In this document: in pieces, positions 5,122-21,007 of the stretch
Layout of the letters: the number at the start of each line of letters is the position of its first letter
How positions within the stretch are numbered: the stretch's first letter is position 1
Virus record (IMG/VR): IMGVR_UViG_3300032273_000009
Coordinates: 1 to 21,007 of that record
Source: a virus
Length of the DNA: 21,007 nucleotides
Strand: one strand, 5' to 3'
Program-made: the position numbers and the translations under genes
Notes under the pieces: model-generated
Databases searched by the model: none
What the model was told of the DNA's origin: nothing
Seen by the model: the letters and a program-made list of their open reading frames with translations, nothing else

Positions 5122-7935
5122 CTACAAGCCCACAGCGATGCGGTTGATGACCTTCTGAGCGGTCGTCTCGGCATTGCCGGTGCGGTCGTTGATCGTGAAG
5201 TTGTTGGTCATCTGGCGGGAGTTGTTCGTGCTGGACGCCCCAGCGTTGTTCGTGACAGTCCCGGCCATCCCGGCGATGTCGCCACGCAACAGCGCAGCCA
5301 TCGCCCGGACCGAACTGTCCACTTGCGACAGCGGACGGGTGAGCGGGATGACAGCCTCGGCACCAGCCTCACCGATCAAGGCGGGTGTCGGCCCGAACAC
5401 GATGCCACCCCTGGCGAACGGGTTGAGGTTCGACACGAAGTTGCCGATCCCTGCACCGATCGACTTGATCCTGTCCACCGCTGCCTGCACCCCTGCGATG
5501 GCCGCACGGAACGGCGCTGCGATGGCATTGGCAACACCGGCCAACGCCCCCGTCACGATGCCGGTGATGCTTCCGAACAACGTGCGGATCGTGTTGAGGA
5601 TGCCGGTGATGACGGTCGTGATCGTGGACTTGATGCCGTTCCAGATGGTCGAGATCGTGGACTTGATGCCGCCCAGGATGCTGGAGATCGTGGACTTGAT
5701 CGAGTTGAACACGCTGCTGACAGAGCCACTGATTGCTGAGAGAGCGCCCGACACGATCGACTTGATCGAGTTCCAGATGCTGGAGATCGTGGACCGGATC
5801 GAGTTCATCACCGACGTGATGAAGTTCGAGACGGCGTTCATCACCGTGCGGGTGACGTTCAGGATTGCGTTCCAGATCGTGTCCCACAGGTCACCGATCG
5901 TCGTCAACGACGACGTGAACGTGTCCACCATGTCGCTGATCTTGTCCAGGAACACGTCGATGACTTCGGTGACGATCTCCTTCCATTCCTCGAACACCTC
6001 ACCCCACTCAGCCAGCAGTGCAGACGTGTCCTCGAAGCTGCCGCCAAGGGTGGCGAGCGGTTCGATCAGCAGGTCGAGCAACGGGTAGAACAACTGGAAC
6101 GCCTCGGACAGCAAAGCGATCTGCAACTGGAGCGGGATCAGAGCGATCTCGATGAGCGGCATGATGGCCGTCAACAACTCGGCCACGAGCAGGATGATCG
6201 GCGTCAACGACTCGATGACCGGGATCAGCGCCTCAGCAACCGACAGCAGAATGTCAGCGAGCGACACCAGCAACACCCCGGCGAGTTCACCGATGACGGG
6301 CAGCAACGGGGCCAACGCCTCGAACAGCAACAGGATGACCTCAGCGACAGCCTGCAACGCCACGCTCAACGAATCGAACACCCCCGTCTCTTCGAGGGCG
6401 ACGAACATCTCACCGAACGCCTCAGCAGCCACACCGATGGCTTCACCGAGAATGTCAAGAACCGGGGTCAACGCCTCCACAGCAGTGGCAAGAACGCCGC
6501 CGATGATGGACGCCAGTTCACCAAGCTGCTCGAACGGGAGAGCGTTGCCGATGGCGACAAGCGCCTGAGCGAACGTGTTGAGGATGCCGGTCCGGGAGAT
6601 GACGTTGAGGACCCCCGCCAGAAGCGGCAGCAGCTCACCGAGCAACTCCGCCAGTTCAGCGAACCGTTCCACGGCACCGTCGGTGACGAGCACATCGAAC
6701 GCACCGACCAGCCCTTCCAGGACAGGCTGCAACGACAACAGAATCTCGCTGCTCGTCTCCAGGAACGTGAGGACAGCGTTCTCGCCCTCGGCGGTGTTGA
6801 TCCAGTCGTTGAACGTCGTCAACACACCGGTCAGCTTGTCGATCAGCGAGTCGCCTTCTTCGCTGGCGATCCTGAGGAGCGAACCGATGACTCGCCCGGT
6901 GATGCCGATGAGGTCCAGCCACGACTGCAACGACTCGACGGCACGCTCCAGGAACCCCGAGATGGATTCGAGTCCTTCGGCGCTGCCGGTGAACTCGGCC
7001 AGCGACTCAGCCCACGAAAGGAACTGGGCAGACAACTGCTCAGCGAACGGGGTGGCGATCTCCACGAAGTTGAAGAACGCAGTGGTCAGCGGAGCCAACG
7101 CACTGAGCACGTTCCCCAGCGTCGTCTCCAGGTTCATGAAGATGCCGGGAAGGTCCGCTCCCTCTACAGCGCCGATGATCTCGATGAACGACGTGTTGAC
7201 GACTCCGGCAAGACGCTCGAACGCCGTGCCCATCTGGTCGATGAAGCCGTTGGGTCCGCCGAGGCGTACCAGCTCGTCGCCCAGTCCAGCGAACAACGCA
7301 TCCTGCACTTCCAGCCTGATCTCCCGGAAGAGCGGCAAGATGTTGCCGAACGCCGTGACGAACAAGGCGGCATTCGGGGCCAGGTTCTCCAGCGACTTCT
7401 CGATGGCCTCCATCGTCTCGGCAGTGATCTCGCCCTCAGTGACCAACTCCGAGAACCCGGTCTTCACTGCGCCGAGAGCATCACCGACACCGACCAACCC
7501 GATGGCGACAGCACCGAACGCCCCAGCGAGGGCCACACCGATCGGGACCAGCGCAGCCGACGCACTCACCGCAGACAGCAGCGACGAACCCAGCGACACG
7601 ACCGCACCAGCAGCGCCGTACAGGGCCACACCGATCGTCTCACCGAACGCAGCGATGATGCTGCCCCACTTGAGCAGTTCACGCCGGAATGCGCTGCGCC
7701 GCTTCGGGGCTTCCCGCTTCTCCGACTTGTTCCAGCCGTCGTTCCAGTTCCGGTTGTTGTCCCGACCGGCGTCCTTCGCTTCCTTGTCGGACTTGTTCTT
7801 GTCCCAGAAATCACCGAACGACTTGGCGTCGATCGAAGACAGCAGCTTGTCTGCCGTAGCTGCAAACGCAGAGAGCTGGGCCAACGCCTTGGCGGTGTCC
7901 GCATCTACGTTGACGGTGATGGATGGAAGCGCCAC
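5122..7935 (-). CDS. Tape measure protein
   Basis: This is the largest gene of the window, 937 residues. It sets tail length and threads the tail tube during assembly. Evidence is the size, long hydrophobic helical stretches through residues 80-640, a hendecad-type repeat region near 690-780 (IKSTISSIL, IKSTISTIW), and the conserved C-terminal pattern GGIVFGPTPALIGEAGAEAV at about 843-862, typical of tape measure proteins. At roughly 0.15 nm per residue the tail would be near 140 nm, a textbook scaling rather than a measurement. The start is GTG, 21 bases after the chaperone stop, with no strong Shine-Dalgarno. It follows the frameshifted chaperones as in most long-tailed phages. Confidence 0.95.
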   Translation of the reverse strand: MALPSITVNVDADTAKALAQLSAFAATADKLLSSIDAKSFGDFWDKNKSDKEAKDAGRDNNRNWNDGWNKSEKREAPKRRSAFRRELLKWGSIIAAFGETIGVALYGAAGAVVSLGSSLLSAVSASAALVPIGVALAGAFGAVAIGLVGVGDALGAVKTGFSELVTEGEITAETMEAIEKSLENLAPNAALFVTAFGNILPLFREIRLEVQDALFAGLGDELVRLGGPNGFIDQMGTAFERLAGVVNTSFIEIIGAVEGADLPGIFMNLETTLGNVLSALAPLTTAFFNFVEIATPFAEQLSAQFLSWAESLAEFTGSAEGLESISGFLERAVESLQSWLDLIGITGRVIGSLLRIASEEGDSLIDKLTGVLTTFNDWINTAEGENAVLTFLETSSEILLSLQPVLEGLVGAFDVLVTDGAVERFAELAELLGELLPLLAGVLNVISRTGILNTFAQALVAIGNALPFEQLGELASIIGGVLATAVEALTPVLDILGEAIGVAAEAFGEMFVALEETGVFDSLSVALQAVAEVILLLFEALAPLLPVIGELAGVLLVSLADILLSVAEALIPVIESLTPIILLVAELLTAIMPLIEIALIPLQLQIALLSEAFQLFYPLLDLLIEPLATLGGSFEDTSALLAEWGEVFEEWKEIVTEVIDVFLDKISDMVDTFTSSLTTIGDLWDTIWNAILNVTRTVMNAVSNFITSVMNSIRSTISSIWNSIKSIVSGALSAISGSVSSVFNSIKSTISSILGGIKSTISTIWNGIKSTITTVITGILNTIRTLFGSITGIVTGALAGVANAIAAPFRAAIAGVQAAVDRIKSIGAGIGNFVSNLNPFARGGIVFGPTPALIGEAGAEAVIPLTRPLSQVDSSVRAMAALLRGDIAGMAGTVTNNAGASSTNNSRQMTNNFTINDRTGNAETTAQKVINRIAVGL
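5600..5860 (-). repeat. 33-base tandem repeats coding 11-residue units in the tape measure
   Basis: The plus-strand string GTGGACTTGAT begins at 5624, 5657 and 5690, exactly 33 bases apart, and diverged copies extend to about 5860. The repeats encode 11-residue units such as SIKSTISSI, which is hendecad coiled-coil periodicity. Unit gain or loss would keep the frame and change tail length in small steps. Confidence 0.8.
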
Positions 7936-7956
7936 GTGTGCCAGTCTGCCAGATCG

Positions 7957-8558
7957 TTACTTCTTCGGAGGGGCTATGCCCATCGCACCGGCAAACGCCA
8001 TGAACGACTCGGCATCTTTCTGCTTCTCCAGATCAGACACTTTGCTGGTGCCGCCGGGTCGTGGACGGTCCAGTTCCCGCTGCACTTCCTCCACCTTGTC
8101 GTGGGGGACATGCGTGAGCACCCAGTAGTGCAGGTAGTTGAAGAACCGTTGGATGCTCAGGTCGAAGGGGTCTTGGCCTTTGCTGGCCGCTTCGCCGTCG
8201 AACGCTTCGTAGACACTGCCGACCGCTGCGACGAGGCGGAGGCAGACGTGGTAGGGCGCTGCGACCACTGCTCCGTCAGCCACTCGACAATCTCCATCGT
8301 CAGTTCCATCTCGATGTCACCGGACTTCAACCCGTCCTCGAACACCCGGTACTGCTCCGGCCCAAGGATCGCCAGCACGAACTCCAGCATCGCCTTGGCG
8401 ATCTCCACCGGGTCTTCGTTGGCCTGCGAGGCCATCAACAGCGTGAGCTGACCCGAAGTCGGGGGGACCGCCTCGAACTCTGTGCCTTCGATCATGAACT
8501 GAATCGGAACCGGATTATCCAGTACCGACTCACGTGCGCCAGTGCGAAACTCTTTCAT
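7957..8558 (-). CDS. Tail assembly chaperone, frameshifted long form (G-T type)
   Basis: The 133-residue short chaperone frame starts at 8558. A second frame, offset by -1, is open from 8316 down to the TAA at 7957 and has no good start of its own. This is the classic lambda gpG/gpGT arrangement just upstream of the tape measure, where ribosomes slip back one base to make a longer chaperone. A -1 slip in the overlap gives about 200 residues. The second frame contains a convincing helical segment (FNYLHYWVLTHVPHDKVEEV) typical of actinophage T domains. No standard slippery heptamer is visible between 8316 and 8157. Candidate sites with good A-site re-pairing are CGC-CCT, GCA-AAG and ACC-CCT. 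The fusion is known biology; the slip site is inferred. Confidence 0.8.
8157..8558 (-). CDS. Tail assembly chaperone, short form (G type)
   Basis: This 133-residue protein binds the tape measure protein during tail assembly in related phages. Residues 1-95 carry the folded domain (FEAVPPTSGQLTLLMASQAN, then LEFVLAILGPEQYRVFEDGL). Residues 100-133 are Ser/Thr/Lys/Arg-rich and probably disordered; they are the stretch that overlaps the second reading frame. The ATG at 8558 has AGGAGG nine bases upstream, one of the strongest ribosome sites here. It shares the 12-base leader TAGGAGGGTCCC with the tiny ORF at 14456. It lies 39 bases after the connector gene. Confident from position and the overlapping downstream frame. 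Confidence 0.9.
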   Translation of the reverse strand: MKEFRTGARESVLDNPVPIQFMIEGTEFEAVPPTSGQLTLLMASQANEDPVEIAKAMLEFVLAILGPEQYRVFEDGLKSGDIEMELTMEIVEWLTEQWSQRPTTSASASSQRSAVSTKRSTAKRPAKAKTPST

Positions 8559-8597
8559 GGGTGGGACCCTCCTAGTTGTCTGATCCGCTCAGCGTAC

Positions 8598-9047
8598 TCA
8601 GTTGGCAGCCGTCGTGATGGCAACGGCGGCATCCGCTGCCCGCTCGATCACATGGTCACCGTCACGGCCACTGGTCTTCTGGTACCAGCGAGCCACGCCG
8701 CCAGCAGCAGACCACGAGAAATACTGGTCCTTCGTGGACGCCGACCGGCCGTTCTCCACGATCGCCGCATGCGGAGCACGAGCACCCAAACGGAAGCCAC
8801 GCCCGTACTGGTTGCCGGTCCGCTCCACGTAAATCGACGCCAGGTAGGTGCCGACAGCGCCGCCACGATGCTTGGCGTTCAACGGATTGTTGACCGGGGC
8901 CAACGTCTGCGCTGTCTTCTTCGCCACAGCCATTGCTTGCTCACGCCACACCAGCACCGGGGCAGGCACAGGCGACGGACCGTTCATCCACAGTCGCCAG
9001 TTCGTCCTCGTCAGGTTGTCGTCAACCTTGACATCGAAGCCTGGCAT
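8598..9047 (-). CDS. HK97 gp10-like neck/connector protein
   Basis: This 149-residue protein is an HK97 gp10-type neck or tail-completion candidate. Supporting signs are its size, its position just before the tail chaperones, a central helix followed by RLGARAPHAAIVENGRSA at about 86-103 (a hallmark-like AxYVExG variant of this family), and a C-terminal Ala-rich helix. It has no cysteine, unlike its neighbours. The ATG lies one base beyond the previous stop region (stop at 9049-9051), so coupling is likely. It could equally be named a minor tail or head-tail connector protein; homologues are annotated both ways. Confidence 0.7.
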   Translation of the reverse strand: MPGFDVKVDDNLTRTNWRLWMNGPSPVPAPVLVWREQAMAVAKKTAQTLAPVNNPLNAKHRGGAVGTYLASIYVERTGNQYGRGFRLGARAPHAAIVENGRSASTKDQYFSWSAAGGVARWYQKTSGRDGDHVIERAADAAVAITTAAN

Positions 9048-9048
9048 C

Positions 9049-9576
9049 TCACGCCCACTTGTACGGGTTCACGAACACCTGCCAGAAGCCGCCGACGCAT
9101 CCACCCTGAGCGATCGTCGGCGTCCACGGACCCAACACGACCTTGCCCTGCTCGAAATCGCAGCACCGGATCGCCTTGTGCAACGCCCACTGATCCTGGA
9201 GCAGACTCAATGTCGTCTCCGTCAAGTCACCAGGCGACGGCAACGAACCGTCCTCTTCCATCGTCGGCATGCACCGCTGAATGCCCACCTCAACCTCGAA
9301 ACCGATCGGCCGTGCGCACGTGTCGTCCAACGTCGGGATCGGGAACGACTCGAACGAGAACGCCGAACCGGGCCGGATGTACGCCATGCCACACACGTCG
9401 TTCTGGCACTCCAAACCGCAGTAGTCCATCGACACCTGAGCACCGGGATACATGCCGCACCAGCAGACCGGGCCAGACCCGGCGTGCTCGACGTGCAGGC
9501 AGACGCACTCCAGCAACTGGGCCATCATCGGGATGACGGGGTTCACCGTCCACTCCGGCAACTCTTGGTCGGGCAT
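9049..9576 (-). CDS. Cysteine-rich head-tail connector-type protein
   Basis: The 175-residue product starts at an ATG overlapping the previous TAA (TAATG), with GGAAG five bases upstream. It contains 12 cysteines, many in pairs: C24/C26, C38/C40, C53/C57/C62 and C138/C139. The C-terminal half is predicted helical-plus-strand and ends in an aromatic segment (FWQVFVNPYKW). Its slot between the larger connector candidate and the gp10-like gene suggests a stopper, adaptor or tail terminator. No catalytic motif is seen. The cysteine pairs suggest a metal site or disulfides, not verified. Function is from context only. Confidence 0.65.
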   Translation of the reverse strand: MPDQELPEWTVNPVIPMMAQLLECVCLHVEHAGSGPVCWCGMYPGAQVSMDYCGLECQNDVCGMAYIRPGSAFSFESFPIPTLDDTCARPIGFEVEVGIQRCMPTMEEDGSLPSPGDLTETTLSLLQDQWALHKAIRCCDFEQGKVVLGPWTPTIAQGGCVGGFWQVFVNPYKWA

Positions 9577-14657: not shown

Positions 14658-17162
14658 TCAGACCTCCGTCAGATTCGACAACCGCTTGGCACGGCCAGCA
14701 GCCTTGACACTCTCCAGGTTCTGGAGGCGGACCTTGCGCTCGGTGCGCTCGTCAATCTTGGCGAGCACAGCAGCAGCGATCGAGTCAGCGGTGACGGGTT
14801 CGTCGTGAACGACGACGCCTGCGGCGACGAGAGCGGTCTGCTTCTCTCCGCTTGCAGCCAGGGCAGGACGGGTCACCGGGAAACCGGGGACGTTCACGGC
14901 AAGCGCCGCCACGAGTTCGAGGTTCCCCCCGATGGAACGCCAGTCGCCCGACAGCCCACCGGCAGCCTTCAACGTGCGCACCTGCTCGTCGGTCACCCCG
15001 TCGCACACGACACCCGAGAACCAGATTCCATGCTCATCCTCTCCGACCCGGACCTTCGCCACAGCGGTGCCCGTGTTGTCGTAGTGCGCCGACGTGGAAG
15101 AAGCCGACAGGTTCAGGTCGGCGTGCCCGGTACCCAACGTCAGCGTTCCGACGGCCAGTTCACCCTCGGTTGTGTCGATCGCACCCAGATGGAAGTGGGC
15201 GTACGACGACTTCGACTTCGGTGCGGTGACGCACTTCCGGTCGATGCCGATGTGGCACACACCCCACGTGGCGAGGTGCCCGAAGGCGTGGTTGCCGACG
15301 ATCTGGAGAGCGGTCGGGCCGTCCAGCTTCGGGTCATCGAAGATGCGACGATCGGTCAACGCTGGAGGCGCAGCGGATACCAGGCTGATGGCCGGGGCCA
15401 TGCCGGGGAAGTCTTTGTCAGCGGAAGCGGCAATCATGGCGGTGTCCTCGCAGTCGGTGCAGTTCGGGTCGAGTGAGCTGGCGTTCCGTGCGGCTCGCCG
15501 TCGGTTCTCCGGCGTGTCAGGCGGGTTACCGGGCTTGCCGAGTTCTCCCGGCCAGTAGCCAAGAGCGTCGTGGTGCCACTGAGCGCAGGTGCGGTTCAGG
15601 AAGCGGGGTTCGATGTACTTGCGGAGTTGGCGGGTGCAGCGAGTGAAGTCGCCGTTCGTGCCCCAGCGAATCTTGGCTGCGCCCTTGCCCTTGGTCCAGT
15701 AGTTGTGGATGCGGTTCGTCTCTTCGGGGTGGGTGATCCACCCGGAGCCACGCTTGTACGACTTGACCTCGGCAGCAGCAGCGACAGGTTCCGGTGCTTC
15801 CGGGTCGATGCCCAGCGAGATGAACGCTTCCTGGAAGGCGGGAATCTGCACGATGGTGAGGCCGGAGATGCGTGCCTCGCTGAACTCTTGCGACGGCATG
15901 CGACCGGTGGACAGCGCTTCCTCCATCTCGGCGTCGGACGGCATCGACTGCACGCCCTTGTCGGCGTCGATCGACACGCCACTGAGTGCGCCCTGTGCGA
16001 TGAGGTTGATGACTTCTTCCGTCTCGGCCACGTCGGTCAGCAGTTCGCCGGTCCAGTGGACCATGCCGTCGTCTCGGCGCTCCAGGGTGTCCAAGCGACC
16101 CACGACGACCTTGCCGTTGTGCTCCCCGATGTCGGCACGCTGCCAGGTGAGCGGAAGCGGCAAGTCACGCCACGTCAGTGCGCCAGGAAGGAACGAGCGG
16201 CCGTCGCCGGACTCGACACCCTCGGGTGCGGCCACGCCGTACACCGGCATGTTCTCGTCCTCGGCCGGGATCAGCTCGTCAGGAACAGGCGGCTCTTCTT
16301 CGTCCACGACCTCTTCTTCGACAACCTCTTCTTCGACCATCCCGACAGCGTACGTGTCTGCCGACCATGTGTCCGGGATCAGGTCCTCTGCGTCCAGATC
16401 ACGGGCACGCTTGCGGATGTGCGCCTTCGCAGCTTCGGGATCACTCGCACGACCGATCGCTTGGATGGCGTTTCGCAGGTCTTCCACGTCAGCAATGGGG
16501 TACGAACCGTCAGGAAGCGCCCACCCCTTGTCGGCCATCTCTTTGCGTTGCGTCGTGTCGTATTCACGGAAGCTCGAAGCGACGAGCGGGTTCATGTCGA
16601 TGGCAAGCACGCAGCGACAGTTGATCCACGCCGCAGGCGGACCGACCGGCTGACCAGGGAACAGCAACTCTGCTTCCGGCTCGGACTTCACGGTGAACGT
16701 CTCGGTCATGTTCACCGTCGTCCCATCAAGCGAGGCGTGGATGTCACGCACGGCATCGTCCCGCATCGTGACCCACGTCTTGATGGGTTCGGAATCTCCC
16801 GGAGCGACATTCGACTGCGCAGCAGACAAAGTTGCGGCTCCGAGAGTGGCGGTGGCGAACCAGTTGATCATCCGGTCGAGCTGGGCAGCCTCGGCCGCTT
16901 CGCTGGACGTGTCGGGGACCAACATCTCGACGGCACCACGCATGGAATCCAGGAACGCAACGAGGGCCAGATCAGCAGACCCTTCCTCGCCGCCTTCTTC
17001 GCCGTACATCAGAAGAAACGCAGCGGCCAAGGCCACCATCAGAATCTCGGTACGAGCATCTTCTTCCGGCTCAGCGAGTGCTTCTTCGACGGCGGGCTCA
17101 TACAGCTCAGCCAGTTCGACAAGCGTCTCGTCTCGCTCAGCGGCGAAGGCGATCAAGTCCAT
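14658..17162 (-). CDS. MuF-like head morphogenesis/capsid maturation protease fusion with two protease-like modules
   Basis: The ATG at 17162 was chosen because earlier in-frame sequence overlaps the portal gene; the product is 834 residues. Order: an N-terminal helical region; MuF-type domain about 100-190 (RDDAVRDIHASLDG, FPGQPVGPPAAWINCRC); a conserved actinophage segment 212-265 (ALPDGSYPI, KAHIRKRAR); an acidic linker 276-290; protease-like module 1, 305-450 (GALSGVSIDAD, ARISGLTIVQIPAF); a basic module 468-560 (GAAKIRWGTNGDFTRC, CAQWHHDALGYWPGELGKPG); and protease-like module 2, 600-765 (LGTGHADLNL, GGLSGDWRSIGG, NVPGFPV). It should process the capsid precursor. The ISG motif of module 1 has a serine (433) where module 2 has alanine (LVAALAV), so module 2 may be inactive. 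The portal lies directly upstream. Confidence 0.85.
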   Translation of the reverse strand: MDLIAFAAERDETLVELAELYEPAVEEALAEPEEDARTEILMVALAAAFLLMYGEEGGEEGSADLALVAFLDSMRGAVEMLVPDTSSEAAEAAQLDRMINWFATATLGAATLSAAQSNVAPGDSEPIKTWVTMRDDAVRDIHASLDGTTVNMTETFTVKSEPEAELLFPGQPVGPPAAWINCRCVLAIDMNPLVASSFREYDTTQRKEMADKGWALPDGSYPIADVEDLRNAIQAIGRASDPEAAKAHIRKRARDLDAEDLIPDTWSADTYAVGMVEEEVVEEEVVDEEEPPVPDELIPAEDENMPVYGVAAPEGVESGDGRSFLPGALTWRDLPLPLTWQRADIGEHNGKVVVGRLDTLERRDDGMVHWTGELLTDVAETEEVINLIAQGALSGVSIDADKGVQSMPSDAEMEEALSTGRMPSQEFSEARISGLTIVQIPAFQEAFISLGIDPEAPEPVAAAAEVKSYKRGSGWITHPEETNRIHNYWTKGKGAAKIRWGTNGDFTRCTRQLRKYIEPRFLNRTCAQWHHDALGYWPGELGKPGNPPDTPENRRRAARNASSLDPNCTDCEDTAMIAASADKDFPGMAPAISLVSAAPPALTDRRIFDDPKLDGPTALQIVGNHAFGHLATWGVCHIGIDRKCVTAPKSKSSYAHFHLGAIDTTEGELAVGTLTLGTGHADLNLSASSTSAHYDNTGTAVAKVRVGEDEHGIWFSGVVCDGVTDEQVRTLKAAGGLSGDWRSIGGNLELVAALAVNVPGFPVTRPALAASGEKQTALVAAGVVVHDEPVTADSIAAAVLAKIDERTERKVRLQNLESVKAAGRAKRLSNLTEV

Positions 17163-17181
17163 ACCCGAACACCGTAGCCAA

Positions 17182-18957
17182 TCAGGTCGTCGGCTTGATG
17201 GCTTCCAGGTGAGCGGTGGACAGCAGACGTGCCATCGTCGCCCGGTTGTGCTCACGCTTCTGCGACAGCAGACCACGCACGTAGAAGTCGAGAACGGACA
17301 CGACCGGCTCCGGCGAGACGGTCAACCCTGAGAGCACTTTCGGTGCGCAGTCCCACGCCCCGGCCAGCAACTCGTCCTCTTCGCCCGCCAGGACCATGTA
17401 GACCGCATCGGCAGTCATCGCTGTCGTGTCGGTCCGGGGGTGCTTGTTGCGCAGCTTGTTCCCGGCACGCTCCAACGCACGGAACACCAGCACCTCGGAC
17501 GCAGCGATCAGCGGCGACTCGGAATCCTCCATGTCGGGGATGCCACCGGCTTGGCCGCCGTCGTTGATTTCGGTGTCGGTCTTCGTGTTCGTCGGCTGTT
17601 CCTGCGGGTCGTCCGGGAACACGATCGACGTGTCGATGTTCGCTCCCAGAATGCGCAACGCCTCGGCAGTGAGTTCCGGTGTGATCGCACCAGTGGCGAT
17701 GCGCTGCAACAGCCAGGCGACGTACTCGTCTTGCGCCATCTTGTCCTCGGGCTTGAAGCCCGTCTCCCGGCGCACAGCCTCGGAACCCAGCAGGCCACGG
17801 TCGTGCATTTCCAACGCTTCGGTCGAACGGTTCGGTCGGGTACGAATCTCGGCAGTGTCGGCAATGACGTAGTAGTCGTTGAGTTCTTCGTCGGGCACGA
17901 TGCCTTTGAGCGCCGGACGCAGGTACGTGTTCGTCAGTGCTGCGTTGATGACACCAAGGCGAGGTTCGAGGTGCGCCTTGATCGCACTCTCTTCCGACAG
18001 CCAAGCGTTCCAGTGGTTCGCATCGCCGTTGCCCATGAGGACTTCCGGCGGGACATCCATCCCGATGGCGAACCGTGAGATTGCCGACTGGCGCATCTCG
18101 ATGACCGACTCGTCCAGGTCCGACCAGAACGTCAGGTGCTGAACCTTCTCCAGTTCGTCGCCGGGTGCAGTCACCACGATCGGGATGAAAGCTGCCGGAG
18201 AGTTCCGATCCGCAATGGCGGCATTCATCGCTTCGCCCAGCGACTGGAGGAACGTGTCAGCCTGAGAGGCTTCCGGGTCTGCTTCGTTCGATGCTGCGAA
18301 CTGAATCTCCGACGGCATGAACAGGATGCCCGCCCCGGCCAAGCGAGAAGTCAACTGCGCCGAGATGTGGTCGTCGTAGCCAACGATCTGCGAGAGCGTC
18401 TTGATGTTCGAGCGGGTGGGTGCGTCAGCTTCGGACGGGTTCGTCGGGTGCGGCGTCCACACTCGAATGACGAGATCGTTCGCTGTCAGCGGCACACGGT
18501 TCTCGCTGTCACCGAAGTTGCCGGTCAGTTTCCCGTTCTTGCCTTGGGTCAGCTTGCCGGTGGACAGCACGTCCCACTGGTCTTCGCCGGACACGGTACG
18601 GGCAGTGATGTACCCCTCGCCGCTCACCGTCATGTCGGTGCCCAGCAACTGGATCATCTGCGCCTGGTTCTGCGGGCCGCCGTAGAGGGCGTCCATCGCT
18701 TCACGGGCAGGACCGGAATCGAGGGGGACCAGTTCGTTGCCGTCACGCCTCGCCGCATGCAGCGTGGCACGGGACATGACGTTGCCGATCCAGTTGGCGA
18801 CGTAGCGCAACTCGCCCACCGTGTCGAAGAACTGCCACGCCTGGTTCTGCCACCCAGCAGCCGTGCCAGCCTTGCCCTGACTCGACGCAGGCAGACGGAC
18901 GGCTGATGCCACAAAGCCGTTGGGGGCTTCCGGCTGACGGGTTCGTTGGCGTGCCAC
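17182..18957 (-). CDS. Phage portal protein
   Basis: This 591-residue protein would form the dodecameric DNA gate at one vertex. The core pattern is clear: QFFDTVGELRYVANWIGNVM at 42-61, DHISAQLTSRLAGAGILFMP near 196-215, and the actinophage portal signature SRFAIGMDVPPEVLMG at 294-309 with NHWNAWLSEESAIKAHLEPR at 314-333. Residues 440-591 form an extended C-terminal region with an acidic linker and helices. The start is GTG with no strong ribosome site, 14 bases after the DUF1360 gene. It stops 19 bases before the MuF/protease gene, the usual order. Confidence 0.92.
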   Translation of the reverse strand: MARQRTRQPEAPNGFVASAVRLPASSQGKAGTAAGWQNQAWQFFDTVGELRYVANWIGNVMSRATLHAARRDGNELVPLDSGPAREAMDALYGGPQNQAQMIQLLGTDMTVSGEGYITARTVSGEDQWDVLSTGKLTQGKNGKLTGNFGDSENRVPLTANDLVIRVWTPHPTNPSEADAPTRSNIKTLSQIVGYDDHISAQLTSRLAGAGILFMPSEIQFAASNEADPEASQADTFLQSLGEAMNAAIADRNSPAAFIPIVVTAPGDELEKVQHLTFWSDLDESVIEMRQSAISRFAIGMDVPPEVLMGNGDANHWNAWLSEESAIKAHLEPRLGVINAALTNTYLRPALKGIVPDEELNDYYVIADTAEIRTRPNRSTEALEMHDRGLLGSEAVRRETGFKPEDKMAQDEYVAWLLQRIATGAITPELTAEALRILGANIDTSIVFPDDPQEQPTNTKTDTEINDGGQAGGIPDMEDSESPLIAASEVLVFRALERAGNKLRNKHPRTDTTAMTADAVYMVLAGEEDELLAGAWDCAPKVLSGLTVSPEPVVSVLDFYVRGLLSQKREHNRATMARLLSTAHLEAIKPTT

Positions 18958-18971
18958 GGGACCGAGGCTAC

Positions 18972-19283
18972 TCAGTCAGCCGGTACGTCTCGGGCATTCA
19001 GGATCGCCGCCAGGTACGCACCACCCAGCCACAGGTTCGGCACCCACCAGACCCAGGACAGATCGGTCGCCCATGCGAGCAGAAGGTTCGGCAGAGCAAA
19101 CCACGGAGCCACGCAGAACGAGCAGGTCACCAGCTCACCCCAGTTGGGCGGGACTGCCAGCACGTACTTCTCTCGCAGCCACACGATTGGGGGCCAATCG
19201 TCGTCAACGACGAGACGGGCGAGTCGGCCCGTTGCTGCAATGCCGATGATGAACGCAGCGATGGTGGTGAGATCAACTTGCAC
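18972..19283 (-). CDS. DUF1360-type membrane protein
   Basis: I place the start at a GTG (19283), with GGAAGG eight bases upstream, giving 103 residues and an 11-base overlap with the sulfotransferase-like gene. A first hydrophobic helix is at 6-20. The diagnostic part is LVTCSFCVAPWFALPNLLLA at 51-70, like the CxxC-containing core of DUF1360 proteins, followed by further hydrophobic segments. Members are found in many actinophages, often near the portal; their role is unknown. An upstream in-frame start (19346) lies deep inside the neighbouring gene and is less likely. Confidence 0.75.
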   Translation of the reverse strand: MQVDLTTIAAFIIGIAATGRLARLVVDDDWPPIVWLREKYVLAVPPNWGELVTCSFCVAPWFALPNLLLAWATDLSWVWWVPNLWLGGAYLAAILNARDVPAD

Positions 19284-19857
19284 GGGAAGCACCTTCCAGT
19301 AGTTCGTACGTCGCCCACACTGACCCCGGAATGTCGTCCAGGTCAATGTCGGCTCTCGTCCGATGATTGTACGTCTGGCTCACAGCCGGGATCGCCGCTG
19401 CCAGTTCTGAGGCGTTCAGGTGCAACGCCCGAACGATCTTCTCCCACGCCACGGAGTCGATGTTCGTGACGAAGTGGGCGTAGTTGAGGGCGTGCTGGTT
19501 CGACGCCACGTACCAGTGGCAGGCAGCGTCGAACGGTTCCATGTTCTCGATGTCAGGCACGTAGTTCCGCATGAAGTCGAGGTACATCGAGTTCCGGTCG
19601 AAGAACCCGATGCCGAGGAAACTGGAGATCACTGCCGCCGGGTGGCGATACAGCAGACCGATGTTCATTTCGTGTCGCACTTGCGGCAGATACGGAATCG
19701 CCAGCCACGACACGTCTACGGTCACGTCACGCTTCGGGTCGGGTCCGTGCGGTCCGAACACGAACTCGTGACCGGCCGTGATCGACTCACAGTTCTGGAG
19801 CACCTTGGCGACGTACCCGGTTCCGCATCGACCTGTCCCCGTGATGACCAGCCTCAC
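19273..19857 (-). CDS. Sulfotransferase-like P-loop protein
   Basis: The GTG at 19857, overlapping the previous TGA (GTGA), gives 194 residues; a TTG 36 bases upstream is possible but would run 40 bases into the prior gene. The N-terminus LVITGTGRCGTGYVAKVL places a glycine-rich 5'-phosphosulfate-binding loop after the first beta strand, as in PAPS-dependent sulfotransferases. Residues 68-80 (LLYRHPAAVISSF) fit the 3'-phosphate-binding Arg/Ser segment. It would transfer sulfate from PAPS to an acceptor, perhaps a glycan made by the upstream glycosyltransferase. The acceptor is unknown, and a related P-loop kinase-like fold is a lesser alternative. Confidence 0.75.
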   Translation of the reverse strand: MRLVITGTGRCGTGYVAKVLQNCESITAGHEFVFGPHGPDPKRDVTVDVSWLAIPYLPQVRHEMNIGLLYRHPAAVISSFLGIGFFDRNSMYLDFMRNYVPDIENMEPFDAACHWYVASNQHALNYAHFVTNIDSVAWEKIVRALHLNASELAAAIPAVSQTYNHRTRADIDLDDIPGSVWATYELLEGASRAS

Positions 19858-20078
19858 GTGAGTCGCCAGACCTGATCGGCTTCGGTCGGGCAAGGCGGGT
19901 GGTCGTGGAAGTCCATCGTCTCCACGTCGTCGGGCAGCATGCCGACATCGCCGTCAACGACAGACAGCGTTCCGATCATGCGGAACCATGAGTCCTTGTC
20001 GGCCTTGTTCCAGTGCTCGATCCGTGACCCGATCACCATGAGGGGCACCTGGCCGTGACGCCACTTGTGTTCGGTCAT
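19854..20078 (-). CDS. 74-residue conserved-looking hypothetical protein
   Basis: The ATG at 20078 overlaps the methyltransferase stop (ATGA), with AGGAAG five bases upstream, so the gene is coupled and the longer frame starting further upstream is rejected. The product has a beta-rich N-terminus (GQVPLMVIGSRIEHWNK), acidic/Asp-rich middle (VVDGDVGMLPDDVETMDF) and a C-terminus with HDHPPCP. No known family. Its place between a methyltransferase and a sulfotransferase-like gene suggests a role in the same modification, but that is guesswork. Confidence 0.75.
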   Translation of the reverse strand: MTEHKWRHGQVPLMVIGSRIEHWNKADKDSWFRMIGTLSVVDGDVGMLPDDVETMDFHDHPPCPTEADQVWRLT

Positions 20079-20665
20079 GGGTTCTTCCTCGCAATGATCA
20101 CACCCCGAGGTGACGGCCAGTCCAGGTACGAGAACCCCTGCGACAACAGCGCCGTCCTCAGTCTGTCGGACCACGGGCCAAAGTGCGGAGCGGTGTCGTG
20201 AAAGCAGACGATCGCCCGCTCGCTGTAGTGCTCCAAGTAGAACTCGAACTCGGGTTGGCGGAGTTGCAGCAGGCTGTCGTGCCAGGCGAAGTCGATCGGC
20301 TGGAAAGACCACGGCTTCATCGACGGCTGGGCGTACGGGATGATCGGCAGGTCCTCGTACGGTTCCCAGTTCCTCAATGCCTCGTTCAGTGTGGGTATGT
20401 CCGGCTCGTACGTGTGAAGGGTGCCGTGCCCGTTGCTCTTCAAGGCTTGGCCGATCGCCAACGCCATGAATCCACGAGACGTTCCCGTCTCCAGCACCAC
20501 GTCCGGCTGATGCCCCCGGATCATCCCGGCGACCATCTCGATCACTTCCGCTTCTGTCCCCTGGATGTCGTGTGTGTGCCACCACTTCGGTTCCCTGCAT
20601 TCCTGCCTCGGCTTCGTGAAATCAGATTCCTCGTACCAACCAACGTCGATGTTCGGACTGCTCAT
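20075..20665 (-). CDS. Class I SAM-dependent methyltransferase (Methyltransf_24/cephalosporin hydroxylase-like)
   Basis: This 196-residue enzyme carries the SAM-binding motif I VVLETGTSRG at 56-65, an acidic post-I residue in YEPD near 86-89, IDFAWHDSL at 124-132, and CFHDTAPH at 154-161, which matches the small O-methyltransferases of phage and sugar clusters. It would methylate a sugar or another small acceptor. The ATG has GGAGG seven bases upstream and overlaps the glycosyltransferase-type gene by four bases, so they act as one unit. Substrate unknown. Confidence 0.85.
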   Translation of the reverse strand: MSSPNIDVGWYEESDFTKPRQECREPKWWHTHDIQGTEAEVIEMVAGMIRGHQPDVVLETGTSRGFMALAIGQALKSNGHGTLHTYEPDIPTLNEALRNWEPYEDLPIIPYAQPSMKPWSFQPIDFAWHDSLLQLRQPEFEFYLEHYSERAIVCFHDTAPHFGPWSDRLRTALLSQGFSYLDWPSPRGVIIARKNP

Positions 20666-21007
20666 TGCTTGGCCTCCACTTTCTTGAAGAACTCATCGAA
20701 CGGTTCGCCCCACGCTTCGGCGTGCGTCGTGTAGATCGAGTAGTCGGTTCGTGCGGCGGCCTGGAGAACCATCGACCAGGCCAGGTCGTTCTCGTTGCGC
20801 CTCAAGTGGTGCTTCGCCAGGTAGTAGAACGGTTCACGTCTGGCCGGTTCCTCGGCCACAGCCTTCCAGTAGTACCGCTCCGGGTGGCTGTCGATCTGCG
20901 CCAGCATCATGTACGCCTCTTGGCGCTCCGGCCCCCACGTTGCCTTGTCGTGGTGGATGTACTTCCACAGCGCAACACGTGCCTTGTCCCACATGGCCCG
21001 GAACTTG
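20662..21007 (-). CDS. C-terminal part of a glycosyltransferase-type protein (5' end outside window)
   Basis: The frame is open to the right edge: residues K-F-R-A precede the first internal Met and no stop is seen, so 114 residues are visible and the catalytic domain lies outside. The visible part (YIHHDKATWGPERQEAYMML, then YYWKAVAEEPARREPFYYLA) is a helical repeat-like tail I associate with family 2 glycosyltransferases of phages. It could also be a separate TPR-like protein. It is joined to the methyltransferase by an ATGA overlap, so both probably act on the same glycan. The assignment is from pattern recall and needs the missing N-terminus. Confidence 0.55.
   Translation of the reverse strand, partial: KFRAMWDKARVALWKYIHHDKATWGPERQEAYMMLAQIDSHPERYYWKAVAEEPARREPFYYLAKHHLRRNENDLAWSMVLQAAARTDYSIYTTHAEAWGEPFDEFFKKVEAKQ

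Follow-up and report, generated by a model that had tools for sequence, protein, structure and literature searches.

A glycosyltransferase (GT), a methyltransferase (MT) and a sulfotransferase (ST) are encoded beside the portal gene of an uncultured actinophage-like virus. In our reading, which we give about an even chance, they form a phage glycan-decoration set in which a glycan on a virion protein is capped with methyl and sulfate groups. The ST belongs to a little-noticed phage family that is recurrently fused or adjacent to GTs, which gives good grounds for supposing that a sulfated or methylated glycan is built.

The window is the entire public IMG/VR contig of 21,007 bases. The GT gene is open at the contig end, and its 5' part was read from a syntenic phage, L002 (IMGVR_UViG_3300013101_000064). 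From the right end, the minus strand carries the GT tail, the MT, a 74-residue protein (X), a P-loop protein, a DUF1360-like protein, the portal and the head operon (Table 1). A single 872-aa ORF of the window (14658-17276; phrog_859), kept in relatives, joins a Mu F-like head morphogenesis domain to a prohead protease domain of the S78 type.

Table 1 Features at the right end of the window, in order from the contig end.
Feature	Position	Strand	Remarks
GT2 glycosyltransferase, C-terminal TPR-like part	20662..21006	(-)	last 114 codons; open at contig end; phrog_13126
SAM-dependent methyltransferase, 196 aa (putative sugar O-methyltransferase)	20075..20665	(-)	PF13578
Protein X, 74 aa	19854..20078	(-)	homologues in L002, L003, L050, L053
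Sulfotransferase, 194 aa, GTG start	19273..19857	(-)	assigned by motifs, fold and family
DUF1360-like small membrane protein, GTG start at 19283	18972..19283	(-)	phrog_781, E=2.5e-8
Portal protein, head-operon anchor	17182..18957	(-)	phrog_776, E=2e-145; 72% identity to L002

On sequence and model grounds, the P-loop gene encodes a member of the PAPS-dependent sulfotransferase superfamily, with putative use of PAPS. Sulfotransferases bind PAPS through two motifs, the P-loop for the 5'-phosphosulfate and an Arg-x7-Ser pair for the 3'-phosphate. In our ST alignment of 25 sequences, G7-T8-G9, T13, H30-E31, S50-W51, A53, R71 and P73 are invariant (25/25). R10 and G12 are kept in 23/25, as is S79, which follows R71 at a spacing of 8 (R-x7-S). 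The family profile matches SULT chains across the R-x7-S region, and the same stretch is aligned in SULT4A1. The HE and SW pairs are specific to the family, and the catalytic base may be among them. The AlphaFold (AF2) model has a pLDDT of 95.8; its top Foldseek matches are 3-OST-1 (heparan sulfate 3-O-sulfotransferase), which leads, SULT7A1 and a bacterial sulfotransferase. At E<=0.001 there are eight matches in the PDB, every one a sulfotransferase, with TM-scores of only ~0.5, which places the resemblance at the level of the superfamily and not of a close relative. The protein shares the fold, the P-loop and the R-x7-S 3'-phosphate motif with the heparan 3-OST, SULT and Sulfotransfer_3 enzymes. 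Unlike them, it represents a compact subfamily (194 aa) with its own signature, GTGR[CS]GTGY...GHE...SW.

PF13469 (Sulfotransfer_3) is matched by the window ST with 19.7 bits and by its L002 homologue with 26.2 bits, short of the gathering cut-off of 27. The model is reached at E<=0.1 by 11 of 21 family members, those shown individually lying below the cut-off. The ST is thus a member of the superfamily and not a curated member of PF13469.

The two-sequence ST alignment retrieved 20 viral loci. The non-redundant viral loci of the family number 18 (the window, L002, L030 with L032, L031, L033-L038, L040-L042 and L044-L048). A GT is fused to, adjacent to or close by the ST in 16 of these 18, by a raw count of neighbours. 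Fusions of ST and GT occur in L031 (GT4, 2e-13), L033 and L040 (both GT2) and, weakly, L030/L032. The GT adjoins the ST in L034, L035, L041, L044, L046, L047 and L048, and lies near it without adjoining in the window, L002, L037, L042 and L045. In the two remaining loci, L036 (where a methyltransferase is next) and L038, no GT was found fused to, beside or near the ST. In L046 the neighbour of the ST is itself a GT2-methyltransferase fusion, which brings together the three activities that the window encodes. Several separate ST-GT fusions are hard to explain unless the ST is functionally linked to glycosylation. Two loci also connect the pair to the capsid: L034 has the order major head protein, ST, GT4, head-tail adaptor, and L035 the order head protease, major capsid protein, ST, glucosyltransferase.

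Two further islands were observed among these loci. L037 carries three sulfotransferase-like genes in a row (7402-9185) within a phage glycan island with rhamnosyl- and GT2-type transferases. In L030 (9540-12317), GDP-mannose dehydratase-like, second sulfotransferase, nucleotidyltransferase and GT2 genes make up a nucleotide-sugar and glycan island.

The family was also met on a bacterial MAG contig (L052:850-3969), where ST, TPR and GT41 share one frame of 1039 aa. GT41 is the O-GlcNAc-transferase family. This contig was the only hit in 84,980 genomes, which were scanned for one exact motif, so the rarity of the ST in bacteria is a hint rather than a result. By tblastn against 50,697 named phages, neither the window ST nor its L002 homologue nor two distant ST relatives found a match, and the MT and X likewise gave none in that set. 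Single-protein scans of viral contigs returned nothing for ST or X; it was two- and three-sequence alignments that retrieved the relatives missed in this way.

Of the GT, the window has only the C-terminal part, which matches phrog_13126 (beta-1,4-glycosyltransferase; E=6.9e-7). Along 109 aa this tail shares 50% identity with the full-length GT2 (312 aa) encoded by L002, which matches the same family with E=1.2e-66. The catalytic half is read from L002, and the Pfam GT2 models score below their cut-off. The nearest solved relative of the L002 enzyme is GmaR (E=1.7e-5), then, weakly, SunS (E=0.13). GmaR is a flagellin GlcNAc-transferase composed of a GT domain and TPR (PMC9638930). The phage protein resembles it in having a GT2 domain and a TPR-like C-terminal half, the latter assigned from weak TPR matches. 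It differs from GmaR in that no antirepressor domain is seen, and the sequence similarity is modest. By tblastn, 44 named phages match the GT, none of them listed as a mycobacteriophage. In one Actinomycetia phage, DSL-LC01 (L049:4436-7080), a GT of this kind overlaps an annotated tryptophan halogenase gene beside collagen-like genes, possibly another pair for glycan or fibre tailoring.

The MT exceeds the gathering cut-off of PF13578 (Methyltransf_24) with 31.4 against 26.3 bits. Its L002 homologue scores 28.1 bits, and identity is 55-60% in L002, L050 and L053. An earlier note, made from the letters of the window, had called the edge protein a glycosyltransferase and its neighbour a methyltransferase and had proposed a search with PF13578; both assignments are borne out. 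Its call of a sulfotransferase-like gene for the P-loop protein stands by motif, fold and family; the PF13469 search that it proposed gave a match below the gathering score.

The gene order of the window recurs in L002: TerL, a 102-aa protein, GT2 (312 aa), MT, X (71 aa), ST, DUF1360, portal. Protein identity between the two is 50% for the GT tail, 55% for MT, 41% for X, 44% for ST, 44% for DUF1360 and 72% for the portal, so that both order and coding are kept at a large sequence distance. The DUF1360 homologue of L002 exceeds the PF07098 cut-off. A DUF1360-like gene lies close to the portal in nearly all related loci and bounds a variable interval. Across 26 portal relatives, the interval between TerL and DUF1360 is a cargo slot with differing contents. 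A GT of the same kind occupies it in L006, L007, L008, L011, L014, L026 and L028, accompanied in L026 by an unrelated-looking sulfotransferase. The earlier note had treated unrelated host genes beyond the contig edge as evidence against its reading; the syntenic relatives show GT and TerL there. The portal found no match in the 84,980 genomes searched for a host.

Other methyltransferase-like genes lie between DUF1360 and the portal in L011 and L019-L021. By eye, those at L019:3022-3780, L020:9211-9969 and L021:9283-9969 carry a DNA cytosine methyltransferase-like motif, LLDLFCGAGGxSVGYARAGF.

The composition of the slot shows that GT, MT, X and ST are not one fixed unit, since L050 and L053 have the order TerL-GT-MT-X-DUF1360-portal with no ST, and L003 has TerL-X-DUF1360-portal with no GT, MT or ST between. 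The two sister cassettes that lack the ST also indicate that the GT-MT step does not depend on sulfation. GT and MT stay together in four loci (the window, L002, L050 and L053).

It had been proposed that overlapping start and stop codons from the GT tail to the P-loop gene mark the four genes as a unit. The overlaps themselves are all present, each of 4 nt: ATGA at GT/MT (20662-20665), ATGA at MT/X (20075-20078) and GTGA at X/ST (19854-19857). The ST gene further shares 11 nt with the DUF1360-like gene downstream. These overlaps suggest, from sequence, that the GT, MT, X and ST genes are co-translated. By crude gene calls, equally tight junctions occur elsewhere in the contig (for example 3666/3663 GTGA, 2416 TAATG, 9576 TAATG and 9047/9049). 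Because tight junctions are common here, the overlaps do not single out the four genes, and we rejected them as the mark of a special unit; the set also splits in L003, L050 and L053.

Protein X has no match in Pfam, PHROGs or NCBIfam, in line with the earlier description of a protein with no known family. Its homologues were found only in this clade, always directly upstream of DUF1360 or of ST-DUF1360. Structure prediction, which had been suggested for this protein, gave a confident, small all-beta AF2 model (pLDDT 90.6, from a four-sequence alignment), for which neither the PDB nor a set of viral models yielded a significant fold match. X is probably not catalytic. Since L003 carries X with no glycan gene, we take it to belong to the backbone and to have ended up within the slot. 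Its membership in the glycan cassette was rejected: it is not confined to loci with GT, MT or ST.

We infer that the three enzymes work on one glycan with a virion protein as the acceptor, in the following order of steps. The GT2 with its TPR-like C-terminus would place a sugar on a phage structural protein that is expressed from the same block of late genes. The Methyltransf_24 enzyme would then O-methylate the resulting glycan, and the ST would transfer sulfate to it from host PAPS. The outcome would be a capped, negatively charged virion surface, produced by a cassette that occupies, between TerL and DUF1360/portal, a slot for variable cargo. A modified glycan, on the virion or on a host sugar, had been suggested before. 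The glycan part agrees with the ST-GT links; as to the acceptor, a virion protein is favoured by the likeness to GmaR, the position in the head operon and the ST-GT pairs behind capsid genes. The proximity to structural genes may, on the other hand, reflect the cargo hotspot and not the choice of acceptor.

The main alternative, though unlikely, is that sugar, methyl and sulfate are added to a host surface glycan during infection, to mask a receptor or to exclude superinfection. Relatives of the GT are annotated as lipooligosaccharide (LOS) glucosyltransferases, which keeps a host acceptor under consideration; the one in phage PaBG is annotated as an LOS beta-1,4-glucosyltransferase. The PHROG of the GT is filed under moron / host takeover. 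However, a place within the late head operon points to late expression, and no flippase or membrane acceptor gene is seen in the slot. GmaR, moreover, acts on a protein, and the ST-GT pairs of other phages lie directly behind a capsid gene.

It is rather improbable that the three enzyme genes are unconnected cargo (morons) collected in an insertion hotspot, with no common substrate. The contents of the TerL-DUF1360 interval do differ in each relative, L050 and L053 lack the ST, and in L003 X is by itself. Against this, GT and MT occur together in four loci, STs of the family are fused to, beside or near GTs in 16 of 18 non-redundant viral loci, and even the unrelated-looking ST of L026 shares its slot with a GT. 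Phage GTs that act on modified DNA bases are known, but modification of DNA bases or of a small molecule, in place of a protein or envelope glycan, is very improbable here, as none of the window genes scanned stood out as a base-hypermodification gene and the GT2-TPR, GT4 and GT41 partners are of the protein or polysaccharide type, not the DNA-GT type.

The preferred reading, a decorated virion protein, has precedents. Mycobacteriophages Che8, Corndog and Myrna glycosylate their capsid and tail-tube proteins with their own GTs (Freeman et al. 2023, via PMC12363180 and PMC11256854). The virus of the window resembles them as an actinophage-like virus encoding its own glycosyltransferase, though one of another type. 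The passages of PMC12363180 and PMC11256854 on this glycosylation describe no sulfotransferase step. In the Che8 relative Maravista, the GTs are found towards the 3' end of the genome, whereas the GT of the window lies between TerL and the portal. Sulfotransferases have been reported in phages before: OM43 phages carry Sulfotransfer_3, whose role in phages was called unclear (PMC10580990), and in glacier viruses a sulfotransferase is among the phage auxiliary genes (PMC8290583). Those are single-gene reports, whereas the window ST has conserved GT and MT partners, and its relatives show fusions and placement in capsid operons.

Sulfation is the unusual part of an otherwise known type of phage glycan-modification module, and we infer its chemistry and acceptor. 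A literature search on phage sulfated glycans found nothing relevant. To our knowledge, sulfated virion glycans, if real, would be the first known for bacteriophages. The GT fusions and the placement behind capsid genes lead to a testable claim, namely that the sulfate goes onto a glycan, probably that of the virion. More generally, and tentatively, a phage-enriched ST subfamily repeatedly fused to GTs might enable phages to build sulfated, methylated capsid glycans. If so, a sulfated virion would alter the charge of the particle, its adsorption and its recognition, and phage glycosylation would extend from sugar addition to tailoring, as in eukaryotic glycan biology.
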